From: Pseudomonas sp. L5B5
Lineage (GTDB): Bacteria; Pseudomonadota; Gammaproteobacteria; Pseudomonadales; Pseudomonadaceae
Reading direction: 5' to 3'
DNA: 64,000 nucleotides
NCBI RefSeq assembly: GCF_020520285.1
Contig: NZ_CP084742.1
Span: forward strand, 5,815,501-5,879,500
In this document: one piece after another, positions 2,242-21,562 of the stretch
Layout: each line of letters starts with the position of its first letter
Numbering within the stretch: position 1 is the first letter of the stretch
Program-made: the position numbers and the translations under genes
The notes under the pieces: generated by a model
The model's database searches: none
The model's input: the letters and a program-made list of their open reading frames with translations, nothing else
What the model was told of the DNA's origin: nothing

Positions 2242-2973
2242 GTGACTTCAGTCAGTAGGTCGATCTTGTTGGTCGACGACGATCAGGAAATCCGCGAGCT
2301 GCTGGAAACCTACCTCAGCCGCTGTGGTTTCCAGGTGCGCAGCACGGCCGATGGCGCGGGTTTTCGCCAGGCGCTGAACGAGGCGCCCAGCGACCTGGTG
2401 ATCCTCGATGTGATGCTGCCCGACGAAGACGGTTTCAGCCTGTGCCGCTGGATTCGCCAGCACCCCAAGCGCAGCCAGGTGCCGATCATCATGCTCACCG
2501 CCAGCTCCGACGAGGCCGACCGGGTCATCGGCCTGGAGCTGGGGGCCGATGACTATCTGGGCAAGCCGTTCAGCCCCCGCGAGCTGCAGGCGCGGATCAA
2601 GGCCCTGCTGCGCCGCGCGCAGTTCGTCCAGGAGCGGGTGGCGGGCGAGGTGCTGTGCTTCGATGAATGGCGCCTGGACGTGATCAGCCATCGCTTGTTC
2701 CACGTCGATGGCGAAGAGGTCATCCTCTCCGGCGCCGATTTCGCCCTGCTCAAGCTGTTCCTCGACCATCCCCAGGAAATCCTCGATCGCGACACCATCG
2801 GCAACGCTACTCGCGGACGCGACCTGATGCCCCTGGATCGCATCGTCGACATGGCCGTCAGCCGTCTGCGCCAGCGCCTGCGGGACACGGAAAAACCCCC
2901 GCGGCTGATCCGTACGGTGCGGGGCAGCGGTTACCAGTTGGCGGCCAATGTGGTGGCCGGCAATGGTCACTGA
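2242..2973 (+). CDS. gltR: GltR-type response regulator of glucose uptake (OmpR family)
   Basis: 243-residue OmpR/PhoB-type regulator. The receiver domain (about 7-120) has the acidic pocket DDD at 12-14, phospho-acceptor Asp56 in LVILDVMLP and the conserved Lys108 in GKPFSP. The C-terminal winged helix (about 140-235) ends in [12 protein letters not shown]. In Pseudomonas the orthologue GltR-2, with GtrS, activates the gts glucose transporter genes, which follow here. The start is GTG at 2242, eight bases after AAAGGA at 2228-2233. An ATG at 2238 lies in another frame and stops after six codons. The end overlaps the gtrS start, as expected for a two-component pair. Confidence 0.93.
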
Positions 2974-4432
2974 GACCCTGCGCAGGGTATTGCCACGGGT
3001 GCCGATGCCCCGTTCGCTGTTGGGGCGGATGCTGTTGCTGACGCTGTTGGCGGTGCTGCTGGCCCAGGCCCTGTCCAGCGTGATCTGGGTCTCGCAGCTG
3101 CGGGCCACCCAGCTCGAAGGCCTGGTGACCAGTGCTCGCAGCCTGGCCCACTCGATGACGGCCAGCGTCAGTTATCTGCGTTCGTTGCCGGTGGCGTACC
3201 GCCCGCTGGTGCTCGACCAGTTACGCAGCATGGGCGGCACCCGGTTTGTCGTGACCCTCAACGACAAGCCCTTGGACATGCAGCTATTGCCGGTCACGCC
3301 GCGCAAGGAGGCGGTATTGCGGGCGGTGGAACAGGTGCTGCGCCAGTCCCTGGGTACGGATGCGGATATTTCCGTGACCTTCGTACGGCCCGATGACCTG
3401 CGGATCTTCAATGGCGGCCTGAAGCTCGACGAACTGCCGCGCTCCTGGGCCCACTACGCCCTCACCCTGGAACCGGTGAACCCGCCGGTGCTGGTGACCC
3501 AGATCCAGATGGCCCCGGGCGAGTGGCTGTACATCGCCTCATTGCTGCCTGAACCCTATACCAGCCTCGAAGAGCAGGGCCTGCCGGCGCAGCAGGTGTG
3601 GTTCATCCTGCTGACCAGCAGTTTCCTGCTGCTGTTCATCGGCCTGCTGGTGCACTGGCAGAGCCGGCCCCTCAAGCGCCTGGCCCGGGCGGCCCGGGAG
3701 CTGTCCCTGGGGGCCGATGTACAGCCGGTGGCACTGGGCGGTGGCAGTGAAGTGGTGGAGGTGGGGCGGGCCTTCAACAGCATGCGCGAGCGCATCAGTC
3801 GCTACCTGACCGAGCGCAGCCAACTGTTCAGCGCCATCTCCCACGACTTGCGCACCCCCATCACCCGCCTGCGCCTGCGTGTCGAGCTGCTGGAGGACGA
3901 ACAGCTGCAAGTCAAGTTCGGCCGCGACCTGGACGAGCTGGAGTTGCTGGTCAAGGGCGCACTGCAGTGCGTCAAGGACACCGATATCCACGAGAACATC
4001 GAGCCGGTGGACCTCAACCAGGTACTCGATTGCCTGGTGGAGCCCTACCTGGCGCCCAGCGGCAACGGGCGAGTGACCCAGCAGGGCCGGGCCCTGGCCA
4101 GTTATCCGGGCAAGCCCCTGGCGCTCAAGCGCTGCATGGGCAACCTGATCGACAACGCCCTCAAGTACGGGCAGAACGCCCACCTGCACATCGAAGACGA
4201 CGCCAGTGCCTTCATCCTGCATGTGGACGATGAGGGCCCTGGTGTGCCCGAGCAGCGGCTGGAGCAGGTCTTCGAACCGCACTTTCGCCTGGCCGGCCAG
4301 CAGCAGGGCTACGGCCTGGGCCTGGGCATCGCCCGCAACATCGCCCACAGCCATGGTGGCGAAGTCAGCCTGCAGAACCTGCGCGAAGGCGGCCTGCGCG
4401 TGACCCTGTACCTGCCTCGTTCCGCGGACTGA
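2963..4432 (+). CDS. gtrS: GtrS-type sensor histidine kinase
   Basis: Inner-membrane histidine kinase paired with GltR. TM1 is around residues 15-40 (GRMLLLTLLAVLLAQALSSV). A periplasmic sensor region of about 170 residues is followed by TM2 (VWFILLTSSFLLLFIGLLVH), a HAMP linker, the H-box SHDLRTPITRLRL (phospho-His at about residue 294) and an ATPase domain with DNALKYG, DEGPGVP and GYGLGLGIARN. In Pseudomonas GtrS senses 2-ketogluconate and 6-phosphogluconate. The start is uncertain: ATG 2963 gives 489 residues, ATG 2948 gives 494, and ATG 3008 is also possible. It overlaps gltR and is the last gene before a REP pair. Confidence 0.92.
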   Translation: MVTETLRRVLPRVPMPRSLLGRMLLLTLLAVLLAQALSSVIWVSQLRATQLEGLVTSARSLAHSMTASVSYLRSLPVAYRPLVLDQLRSMGGTRFVVTLNDKPLDMQLLPVTPRKEAVLRAVEQVLRQSLGTDADISVTFVRPDDLRIFNGGLKLDELPRSWAHYALTLEPVNPPVLVTQIQMAPGEWLYIASLLPEPYTSLEEQGLPAQQVWFILLTSSFLLLFIGLLVHWQSRPLKRLARAARELSLGADVQPVALGGGSEVVEVGRAFNSMRERISRYLTERSQLFSAISHDLRTPITRLRLRVELLEDEQLQVKFGRDLDELELLVKGALQCVKDTDIHENIEPVDLNQVLDCLVEPYLAPSGNGRVTQQGRALASYPGKPLALKRCMGNLIDNALKYGQNAHLHIEDDASAFILHVDDEGPGVPEQRLEQVFEPHFRLAGQQQGYGLGLGIARNIAHSHGGEVSLQNLREGGLRVTLYLPRSAD

Positions 4433-4544: not shown

Positions 4545-4610
4545 GTCACGGCCTGGTGACATTTGCCGTGTGCTTCGTTACCTGGGGCGAACATCGGCTT
4601 GATTAGACTC
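4545..4610 (+). promoter_or_regulatory. candidate GltR-dependent promoter, copy 1
   Basis: GTCAC (4545), GTGAC (4556) and GTTACC (4577) are followed by TAGACT at 4604, a plausible -10 element. The same four elements with the same spacing (11, 21 and 27 bases) recur before gtsA at 5899-5964. GTTACC sits about where a -35 would be, and there is no good -35 sequence, which fits an activator-dependent promoter. GTnAC-type half-sites spaced by one or two helical turns suit an OmpR-family activator, and gltR is encoded just upstream. Assignment to GltR is inference. Confidence 0.6.
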
Positions 4611-4642
4611 AAGCCTTCGACAAGAACAACAACAGGTCGCCC

Positions 4643-5902
4643 ATGGAACCTCTCTCCCTGCCGTTCAGCAGTTGGCTGAACGCTCCCGCCCATCACCACT
4701 GGCTGGCCGCCGAGGGTCTGCGCCTGCTGGACTTCGCCAAGGCCTCGCGACTTGCCGAGGGCTTCGGCAACCTGGATGCCCGGGGTTGCCTGCCCGCTGG
4801 CGCCCTGGCTGAAACCATGAATACCGCCCGCATGACCCACAGCTTTGCCATGGCCCATGTCCAGGGCCTGCCGGGGTTTGCCGACCTGGTGGATCACGGC
4901 ATCGCCGCCCTGGCAGGTCCCCTGCGCGACGCCGAGCACGGTGGCTGGTTCGCCATGGCCGGCCAGGCGGACGGCAGTGGCATCAAGGCGGCTTACCTGC
5001 ACGCTTTCGTCGCCCTGGCCGCAAGCTCGGCAGTGGTGGCCCGGCGCCCTGGAGCCGAGGCCTTGCTGGAAGAGGCGATCGGCATCATCGAGGCGCATTT
5101 CTGGAGCGAGCACGAGGGGGCGATGATCGAGTCCTTCAGCCGTGACTGGAGCGAGCAGGAAGCCTATCGCGGGGCCAACAGCAACATGCACGCTACCGAA
5201 GCCTTCCTCGCCCTGGCCGATGTCACCCAGGACCCGCGCTGGCTGAACCGGGCGTTGCGGATCGCCGAGCGACTGATCCATGGGCATGCCGCCGCCAACG
5301 ATTTCATGGTGGTCGAGCATTTCGACCTCCAGTGGCAACCCTTGCGCGACTACAACCGGGACTTCCCCGCCGATGGTTTCCGCCCCTTCGGCACCACGCC
5401 GGGCCACGGTTTCGAATGGGCACGCTTGCTGCTGCACCTGGAGGCTTCGCGGGTCCAGGCCGGAATGCTGACCCCTGGCTGGCTGGTGCTGGACGCCCAG
5501 CGCCTGTTCGAGAGCAACTGCCGCAACGGCTGGAACGTGGATGGTGCCCCAGGCATCGTCTACACCCTGGACTGGGAAAACCGCCCTGTGGTGCGCCAGC
5601 GCCTGCACTGGACTCACGCCGAGGCCAGCGCCGCCGCCAGCGCTCTGCTCAGGCGCACCGCAGAGGAGCGCTACGAGACCTGGTACCGGCGTTTCTGGGA
5701 GTTCTGCGACGTGCAGTTCATCGATCGCGAGTTCGGCAGCTGGCACCACGAACTGGGTCTGGACAACCGTCCTGCGGCAGAAATCTGGGGCGGCAAGCCG
5801 GATCTTTATCACGCCTGGCAGGCCGTGCTGATTCCGCGCCTGCCCCTGGCGCCGAGCATGGCCTCGGCCCTGGCCCAGGGCTCTGTTTCGGGGACTGTGT
5901 AA
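4643..5902 (+). CDS. AGE-family sugar epimerase/isomerase (mannose isomerase-like)
   Basis: 419-residue cytoplasmic protein of the N-acylglucosamine 2-epimerase (alpha/alpha six-barrel) family. It has typical histidine-containing segments: NSNMHATEAFLAL, RPFGTTPGHGFEWARLLL and RLHWTHAEASAAASAL. Members of this family interconvert mannose and fructose, cellobiose and its epimer, or related free sugars. A mannose/fructose isomerase is the closest guess, but the substrate cannot be read from sequence. It lies between gtrS and gtsA and carries its own copy of the gtsA-type promoter module, so it is probably induced with glucose uptake. ATG 4643 lies 33 bases after the -10 candidate, with CAGGTCGCCC upstream giving only a weak ribosome site. 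Confidence 0.85.
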   Translation: MEPLSLPFSSWLNAPAHHHWLAAEGLRLLDFAKASRLAEGFGNLDARGCLPAGALAETMNTARMTHSFAMAHVQGLPGFADLVDHGIAALAGPLRDAEHGGWFAMAGQADGSGIKAAYLHAFVALAASSAVVARRPGAEALLEEAIGIIEAHFWSEHEGAMIESFSRDWSEQEAYRGANSNMHATEAFLALADVTQDPRWLNRALRIAERLIHGHAAANDFMVVEHFDLQWQPLRDYNRDFPADGFRPFGTTPGHGFEWARLLLHLEASRVQAGMLTPGWLVLDAQRLFESNCRNGWNVDGAPGIVYTLDWENRPVVRQRLHWTHAEASAAASALLRRTAEERYETWYRRFWEFCDVQFIDREFGSWHHELGLDNRPAAEIWGGKPDLYHAWQAVLIPRLPLAPSMASALAQGSVSGTV

Positions 5903-5964
5903 CCATGCGGTGACATTTCTCCATCGCTTCGTTACCCGGGCGCTGGACTAGGCTGTTTAGACTC
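5899..5964 (+). promoter_or_regulatory. candidate GltR-dependent gtsA promoter, copy 2
   Basis: GTAAC (5899), GTGAC (5910), GTTACC (5931) and TAGACT (5958) repeat the module before the epimerase gene with identical element-to-element distances. GGTGACATTT and GCTTCGTTACC are shared outright between the copies, while the stretches between them diverge. It begins inside the last codons of the epimerase gene and ends 55 bases before gtsA. The first half-site pair (GTAAC-N6-GTGAC) is an imperfect inverted repeat. Confidence 0.62.
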
Positions 5965-6018
5965 GTTTGCAGCGCAAGCACCAGACTTGCATGCATAACA
6001 ACAAGAAAGGTACTTCAG

Positions 6019-7311
6019 ATGAATGCGATTTCTCGCCTCGCCACTGTCATTTCCCTTGCCTCCCTGTTTCCCCTGAGCGCCCTGGCTGCCGACTCCAAAG
6101 GTTCCGTGGAAGTGGTCCACTGGTGGACGTCGGGTGGCGAAAAAGCCGCGGTCGATGTCCTCAAGGCCCAGGTGGAGAAAGATGGCTTCACCTGGAAGGA
6201 TGGCGCCGTGGCCGGCGGTGGCGGTTCCACCGCGATGACCGTGCTCAAGAGCCGTGCGGTGGCCGGCAACCCGCCCGGTGTCGCGCAGATCAAGGGGCCG
6301 GACATCCAGGAGTGGGGCAGCACCGGCCTGCTCAGCACCGATACCCTCAAGGACGTGGCCAAGAGCGAGAACTGGGACGGCCTGCTCTCGTCCAAGGTGG
6401 CCAACACCGTCAAGTACGAAGGTGACTATGTCGCCGTACCGGTGAACATCCACCGGGTCAACTGGCTGTGGATCAACCCCGAGGTGTTCAAGAAGGCCGG
6501 GATCGACAAGGCGCCCACCACCCTCGAAGAGTTCTATGCCGCCGGCGACAAGCTCAAGGCTGCCGGTTTCATTGCCCTGGCCCACGGTGGCCAGCCATGG
6601 CAGGACAGCACCGTGTTCGAGGACGTGGTGCTCTCGGTCATGGGCGCCGATGGCTACAAGAAATCCCTGGTGGACCTGGACCAGAAGACCCTTTCGGGTG
6701 CACAAATGACCAAGGTCTTCGCCGAGCTGAAGAAGCTTTCCGGCTACATGGACCCCAACCGCGCCGGGCGTGACTGGAACATCGCTGCTGCGGATGTGAT
6801 CAACGGCAAGGCCGGCATGCAGATGATGGGCGACTGGGCCAAGAGCGAATGGACCGCGGCCAAGAAGGTGGCCGGCAAGGATTACCAGTGCGTGCCGTTC
6901 CCGGGTACCGACAAGGCCTTCACCTACAACATCGATTCGTTGGCAGTGTTCAAGCTCAAGGCCGATCGCAAGGGCGATATCGCCGCCCAGCAAGACCTGG
7001 CCAAGGTTGCCCTGGGCAAGGACTTCCAGAAAGTCTTCAGCATCAACAAGGGCTCCATCCCGGTGCGTACCGACATGCTCAACGACATGAGTGCCGAAGG
7101 TTTCGACTCCTGTGCCCAGGCGGCGGCCAAGGACTTCCTGGCGGACGAGAAGACCGGCGGCCTGCAGCCGAGCATGGCGCACAACATGGCCACCTCCCTG
7201 GCGGTGCAGGGCGCGATCTTCGATGTGGTGACCAACTTCATGAACGACAAGGATGCGGACCCGGCCAAGGCCAGTGCGCAACTGGCGTCGGCGGTCAAGG
7301 CCGCGCAGTGA
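6019..7311 (+). CDS. gtsA: glucose ABC transporter periplasmic binding protein
   Basis: 430-residue family 1 solute-binding protein. A Sec signal peptide ([17 protein letters not shown]...) ends in ALA at 21-23, with mature protein from about Ala24. The mature chain opens with [22 protein letters not shown], typical of sugar-binding proteins. [13 protein letters not shown] and [12 protein letters not shown] are typical of glucose/mannose binders. It captures glucose in the periplasm and feeds GtsB/GtsC/GtsD. It sits downstream of the candidate GltR promoter. A ten-base-pair hairpin and a REP pair follow the stop codon, so the 3' end of its message is probably protected and the protein made in excess over the membrane parts. 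Confidence 0.95.
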
Positions 7312-21369: not shown

Positions 21370-21562
21370 GTGGTCGCTGGGCGGAGTGCTGCTCAGTCCG
21401 TTCTTGATCTATGTGGTATTGGCGCTGGTGCTCACCGGTGTGCTGCGCCTGCTGGTGCGGGTCTGCGGGCTGGGAAACTGGATCTGGCACGAAGCATTGT
21501 TCGATTGTGCGTTGTATGTCTGTGTGCTGACGGCAGTCACGGTCGTCCTCGGACCTTTATAA
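21356..21562 (+). CDS. DUF1656 small membrane protein of the efflux operon
   Basis: 68 residues with two hydrophobic spans (LLSPFLIYVVLALVLTGVLRLL and LYVCVLTAVTVVLGPL) separated by a WIWHEALFD segment typical of DUF1656. Such proteins (YdhI/AaeX type) always accompany FUSC and HlyD partners; a structural role in the pump is assumed. It overlaps the FUSC gene and ends ten bases before the adaptor gene. Confidence 0.9.
   Translation: MGLREWSLGGVLLSPFLIYVVLALVLTGVLRLLVRVCGLGNWIWHEALFDCALYVCVLTAVTVVLGPL

Follow-up and report, generated by a model that had tools for sequence, protein, structure and literature searches.

In the genome of Pseudomonas sp. L5B5, one arrangement of short DNA elements stands before two neighboring genes, which raises the question of whether both genes carry the same regulatory switch, which protein reads it, and whether that protein turns the genes on or off. 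Four genes follow one another here on the + strand of the window, by which we mean the whole 64,000-nucleotide stretch of DNA analyzed: gltR (2242-2973), encoding an OmpR/PhoB-family response regulator and the proposed DNA-binding activator; gtrS (2948-4432), encoding the sensor histidine kinase that partners GltR; manI (4643-5902); and gtsA, also called gltB (6019-7311), encoding a periplasmic sugar-binding protein and starting the glucose transporter operon. The names gltR, gtrS, and gtsA were assigned from context and the literature. The original prediction had taken the third gene for an epimerase gene; its product is, judged by its sequence, a D-mannose isomerase of the AGE superfamily (PF07221), scoring 721 bits against the NCBIfam D-mannose isomerase equivalog NF051846 and so passing the cutoff of 600, and mannose-fructose isomerization is its predicted reaction. 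Its best four solved chains are YihS-type isomerases or their relatives.

Both promoters contain the composite GTnAC-N6-GTGAC-N16-GTTACC-N21-TAGACT on the + strand, at 4545-4609 before manI and at 5899-5963 before gtsA, with elements that start at offsets 0, 11, 32, and 59 from 4545 and likewise from 5899. The manI copy consists of site 1, GTCAC (4545-4549), which, taken with its upstream flank, gives GTGACAAA on the − strand; site 2, GTGAC (4556-4560), followed by ATTT; site 3, GTTACC (4577-4582), preceded by CTTC and overlapping the −35 position; and a −10-like hexamer, TAGACT (4604-4609). The gtsA copy consists of GTAAC (5899-5903), GTGAC (5910-5914) followed by ATTT, GTTACC (5931-5936) preceded by CTTC and again overlapping the −35 position, and TAGACT (5958-5963). 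Here site 1 includes the TAA that ends manI (5900-5902), an overlap found in 67 of the 126 genomes with manI beside gtsA. The predicted recurrence of four elements at equal distances was thus confirmed in the window and in the genome, as was the claim that the intervening DNA differs, with the two copies agreeing at 46% of positions outside the elements.

The composite is otherwise absent from this genome. At up to three mismatches the window contains two matches and 100 dinucleotide shuffles contain none; the whole genome (6,811,662 bases) contains two exact matches, still just these two and no third at up to two or three mismatches, and the reversed-pattern control gave no match at any mismatch level. 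Around edd and gap, where the original prediction had suggested looking, the composite is missing, and the best match to the 14-base operator core in the edd/gap region is 9/14. In published work, however, glk and edd have been called GltR-regulated (PMC7927077, accessible portion), which counts against the reading favored below. A search for the half-operator GTGACA-N11-CTTCGTTAC with three mismatches returned 71 matches vs 99 for the reversed control, which is noise beyond the two known sites, and the best extra match scores 11/14 over the core. Elsewhere in the window, at 21380-21514 on the + strand, lies an Rfam match to Pseudomonas sRNA P18 (RF01671; 103.6 bits, gathering score 60).

Across 199 sampled genomes of the genus, the composite occurs at up to two mismatches in 148, and the reversed pattern in 2 (G083 and G122). 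The elements had been picked after the fact, yet their conservation settles that they are real, because 148 of 199 genomes match compared with 2 of 199 for the reversed pattern; chance or after-the-fact pattern picking was rejected on uniqueness in the genome, shuffles, and conservation in the genus. Most composite-bearing genomes have two copies, which in the listed cases are ~1350 bases apart. A gtsA match at E ≤ 1e-60 is present in 182 of the 199 genomes, two of these (G013 and G054) being 34%-identity paralogues, which leaves 180 with a true gtsA. Scanning the upstream DNA of all of these (150 regions plus 30 more), we found three GTnAC sites before gtsA in 180/180: the core sites are present in 150/150 of the first set, and in the further 30 the core is 14/14 in 27, the other three (G012, G063, and G177) having one spacer a base shorter. 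The core score is 14 in 153 genomes, 13 in 24, and 11 in 3, and every score of 13 reflects a change of the first base of site 2 (22 times to A, twice to C). The gap between site 3 and the −10 hexamer is nearly fixed, at 21 bases in 149 promoters, 20 in 30, and 22 in 1. Of the 32 true-gtsA genomes missed at up to two mismatches, 24 have the shorter gap and lack manI beside gtsA, and 3 are the genomes whose inner spacer is shorter. Among gtsA promoters, the fixed site bases mostly carry 2 bits and the DNA that separates sites 2 and 3 is also well conserved, whereas all 15 positions from core position 40 to 54 carry at most 0.75 bits. The elements are therefore conserved upstream of both gtsA (180/180) and the isomerase gene where it adjoins gtsA (122/125, see below), which answers the check on related genomes that the original prediction had proposed.

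Beyond the genus, the composite occurs at up to three mismatches in 155 of 298 family genomes and 8 of 19 genera, counted irrespective of downstream genes, compared with 20 of 298 genomes for the reversed-pattern control; two of the eight genera have a single match each (G390 in g5 and G223 in g19), and these resemble chance matches. In g12, a sister genus, the composite is present in 16 of 18 genomes; for G322 and G337, the remaining two, the search for gtsA gave nothing at E ≤ 1e-60. Among 36 of the 143 family genomes without the composite that were tested for gtsA, 8 gave a match. Five of these, at 58-66% identity, all have a 14/14 core upstream; the other three are gtsA-like paralogues (31-35% identity; G429, G315, and G392) without the operator, with best cores of 8-9, and this paralogue check covered these three.

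The regulator that published work places at this promoter is GltR. According to the accessible portion of PMC7927077, GltR-dependent glucose induction occurs at gltB of P. aeruginosa, glucose-loaded GtsA/GltB activates GtrS-GltR, ChIP-seq of GltR gave the consensus GTNACAAA from 16 peaks, DNase I footprints at gltB span −44..−13 and −11..+15, and removal of GTGACAAA abolishes glucose induction of gltB. The footprinted 14-mer given there, GTGACAAACCCGGA, is found as site 2 in the gtsA promoter of a sister-genus genome, G317. In the same published numbering, with an anchor that may be off by one because the element was published in two versions, one of them 1 base longer, sites 1, 2, and 3 of G317 lie at −33..−29, −22..−18, and −1..+5 and its TAGACT at +26..+31, so that the two protected regions cover sites 1 and 2 and site 3, respectively. 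The original proposal of direct GltR control is supported at gtsA by this coincidence of consensus and footprints with the sites. Its remark that no published operator of this exact form was known holds only in part, since GTNACAAA is the published GltR consensus (PMC7927077, accessible portion) and GTnAC-n6-GTnAC is the GlnR box (PMC10704036, accessible portion).

GTnAC is its own reverse complement, and the direction of the half-sites was therefore read from the flanks, using RWW (A/G, A/T, A/T), a widening of the published AAA, in 175 distinct gtsA and 119 manI promoters, a sample that leaves out scores below 13, cut-short sequences, and duplicates. Site 1 reads GTNACRWW in inverted orientation, with the motif on the left flank, in 110/175 gtsA promoters (1 on the right) and 101/119 manI promoters (7 on the right). 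Site 2 has it on the right flank in 158/175 and 116/119 (4 and 0 on the left), and site 3, inverted, on the left in 175/175 and 116/119 (0 and 2 on the right). The flanks thus read ← → ←, a statement about the DNA and not about the protein. The predicted same-face phasing of the GTnAC sites is supported (spacings of 11 and 21); the three are not equal repeats, given the alternating flanks. In gtsA promoters, the 22-bp dyad of sites 1 and 2 has more inverted than direct matches (7.3 of 11 vs 4.8); arms taken from different genomes match equally well (7.4), so the dyad reflects conserved sequence without covariation. We regard it as possible, though short of probable, that the whole is a three-part GltR operator of opposed half-sites, a divergent pair with an inverted third over the −35 position, and that manI is a position-bound member of the regulon. 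To our knowledge, opposed half-sites would be an unusual geometry for an OmpR/PhoB-family activator.

An alternative geometry, also compatible with GltR and one to which we would give a little less than an even chance, is that sites 1 and 2 are simply a direct repeat with a tandem period of 11 bp, like that of GlnR boxes. Core position 22 might then hold a fourth, degenerate half-site, and two dimers would bind in tandem. In both copies sites 1 and 2 have the layout GTnAC-n6-GTnAC, a likeness to the GlnR type (PMC10704036, accessible portion) that we do not extend to membership. Core position 22 is occupied by a GCRTC block in 144 of 177 gtsA promoters, lying between sites 2 and 3 at a distance of 11 and 10 bases, respectively, and in 0 of 119 manI promoters; at this position the window reads CCATC (5921-5925). 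The second published footprint, in the accessible portion of its source, likewise begins 10 bases before site 3. The midway GCRTC that gtsA promoters carry and manI promoters do not lends weight to the direct-repeat reading, while the absence of the block from manI promoters, together with A/T-type flanks that are one-sided and alternate in direction, speaks against it.

Whichever geometry applies, GltR very probably reads the conserved switch before gtsA and manI. We found GltR at E ≤ 1e-75 in 179 of 199 genus genomes; the 20 without a match comprise 17 without gtsA, G013 and G054, and G051, in which part of GltR is encoded beside gtrS (94 residues at 89%, where the retrieved sequence ends). 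GltR, a true gtsA, and the operator thus occur together in 180 genomes, and none of the three was found in the other 19, absences that are not firm one by one because scoring was limited to 14 candidates per genome and overlooked G051. One genome, G104, has a gltR frame with a single internal TAG (G104:C1:5088095-5088814) and retains the gtsA operator. A different, unlinked regulator that shares the GTnAC half-site would be an improbable substitute. It could draw on the recognition of GTnAC by other OmpR-family regulators such as GlnR (PMC10704036, accessible portion), on the fact that GltR is tied to the manI copy through sequence only, and on the 25 listed, hand-picked genomes in which gltR is remote from gtsA (103 kb to 4.3 Mb, counted along the contig). 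All 25 of these nevertheless keep a 14/14 operator, which speaks for GltR, and such a regulator would have to account for the coincidence of GltR and operator in 180 genomes, with neither found in 19, and for published GltR footprints that fall on the three gtsA sites (PMC7927077, accessible portion).

The direction of control is disputed in the literature, and the position of the sites relative to the promoter bears on it. Measured from the conserved −10, the sites occupy positions upstream of the −35 and across it, in agreement with the prediction that the last site overlaps it, site 3 covering the −35 position in both copies; they lie otherwise relative to the published primer-extension start. 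The best −35 match is at most 3/6 in 169 of 177 gtsA promoters. Among manI promoters, 35 of 119 match the −35 at 4 or 5 of 6 bases, and activator dependence is therefore not uniform at manI. In the published numbering, the P. aeruginosa primer-extension start is 25 bases upstream of TAGACT, which puts the sites in a repressor-like position (PMC4081096, accessible portion). The conserved −10 predicts a start ~35-40 bases downstream of that one, which would make the repressor-like placement that of an activator; either the conserved −10 or the published start must be wrong. The model in which GltR is a repressor that leaves on phosphorylation draws on in vitro and mutant data as well as on this start (PMC4081096, accessible portion), and we give it a slightly smaller chance still than an unlinked regulator. 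The placement of the sites relative to the conserved −10 speaks against it, its tgGTTTTTc operator is not the conserved feature of these promoters, and later work reports that GltR activates, that phosphorylation strengthens its binding, and that the strain of the earlier study has a variant promoter (PMC7927077, accessible portion). The near-fixed distance to the −10 speaks for activation.

The leaders of both genes contain a CA-type motif on the + strand, AAGAACAACAA (4622-4632) before the manI start codon and AACAACAA (5997-6004) before that of gtsA, which we take to be of the Hfq/Crc target type. AAnAAnAA occurs before gtsA in 150/150 genomes and before manI in 110/125, compared with 3.5% of random 60-mers of these loci. 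The gtsA leader also contains an inverted repeat, GCAAG..CTTGC (5972-5994 in the window), present in 146/150 leaders, that in the window folds no better than shuffles (z = −0.72).

The manI copy of the operator follows the position of the gene. manI is present at E ≤ 1e-80 in 158 of 199 genus genomes and immediately precedes gtsA in 126 of 150 regions, of which 125 manI promoters could be read (that of G083 is cut by the contig end). The operator is kept at 12/14 or better in 122 of these 125: 92 score 14, 29 score 13, each with a changed base in site 3, and 1 scores 12. The other three (G006, G086, and G164) are degraded, at 7-9/14, with G086 retaining sites 1 and 2 and the −10. When manI lies elsewhere in the genome, the operator is absent in all 27 cases examined (24 genomes without manI in the gtsA region plus G106, G126, and G198), with best scores of 7-10/14 within 600 bases, the level of the other strand. 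The presence of the operator at the manI promoter depends on manI adjoining gtsA, and since relocated manI genes do without the operator (27/27), GltR control is not essential to the isomerase. Among ten named genomes, seven have the double operator, and a scan for the core, irrespective of gtsA position, found none at 12 or above in the other three. Outside the elements, manI promoters of different genomes are 57% identical, and their last spacer has several positions above 1 bit; manI and gtsA copies are 47% identical within a genome and 46% between genomes. This comparison gave no sign of within-genome homogenization of the two copies, and because they are no more alike within than between genomes, the duplication is old or independent. 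That promoter duplication left the manI copy as a relic without function, as the layout common to both copies, the 3 of 125 degraded copies, and the operator-free relocated genes might suggest, is the least likely alternative, given that 122 of 125 adjacent promoters keep the operator while non-element positions agree at only 57% and 46-47%.

We therefore favor, with good confidence, the reading in which each copy is a GltR operator-promoter and phospho-GltR activates both, although for manI we infer binding and activation. Glucose-loaded GtsA/GltB would activate GtrS, which would lead to phosphorylation of GltR; phospho-GltR would then bind the distal GTnAC pair, sites 1 and 2, centered near −64 from the predicted start, as well as the proximal site 3 overlapping the −35 position, and recruit σ70 RNA polymerase to a promoter whose −35 is weak and whose −10 is of the TAgACT type. 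The gtsA copy would drive gtsABCD-oprB and the other copy the adjacent manI, so that conversion of mannose to fructose would be induced together with glucose uptake, and a further layer of catabolite control by Hfq/Crc is suggested by the CA motifs of the two leaders. The predicted place of the upstream gene in the glucose regulon is thus supported as probable. Tentatively, manI would come under the switch only as long as its place is between gtrS and gtsA, the second part of the opposed half-site reading; if so, mannose conversion is coupled to glucose sensing in those lineages only.

These results show how the GltR operator is laid out in much of the family, at a nearly constant distance from the −10, and suggest that in many Pseudomonas the use of mannose is switched on along with the uptake of glucose. 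When P. protegens Pf-5 grows on a mixture of glucose and mannose, fructose appears in its medium, and the gene for the isomerase was described as unannotated (PMC6293094, accessible portion). A gene of the manI type is a candidate for this step, and GltR-driven manI would explain such co-induction. In the open-access literature searched, as far as its accessible text goes, we found no report of a D-mannose isomerase or YihS-type gene controlled by a glucose two-component system, and the word mannose is absent from PMC7927077. In P. syringae, HT-SELEX identified GltR as a regulator of siderophore genes (PMC7532196, accessible portion).

Among known systems, the closest is the GltR operator of gltBFGK-oprB in P. 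aeruginosa, which shares the regulator, the gene, the GTNACAAA half-site, two adjacent footprints, and GtrS-GltR activation on glucose; it differs in being described, in the accessible portion of PMC7927077, as one half-site consensus rather than a three-site layout with a fixed −10 distance. The tgGTTTTTc operator (PMC4081096, accessible portion) shares the regulator and an overlapping promoter, and differs in its consensus, its repressor role, and its start, besides not being the conserved element here. The GlnR box of Streptomyces venezuelae shares an OmpR-type regulator and the 5+6+5 layout of sites 1 and 2; it belongs to an actinomycete nitrogen regulator and, in the accessible portion of PMC10704036, has neither a third site at +21 nor the CTTCGTTACC block. 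For the enzyme, the nearest solved relatives are YihS-type members of the AGE superfamily, and its NF051846 score is 721. The mechanism is thus probably of a known kind, activation by GltR, and what is new is probably the fuller operator and manI as a probable target.
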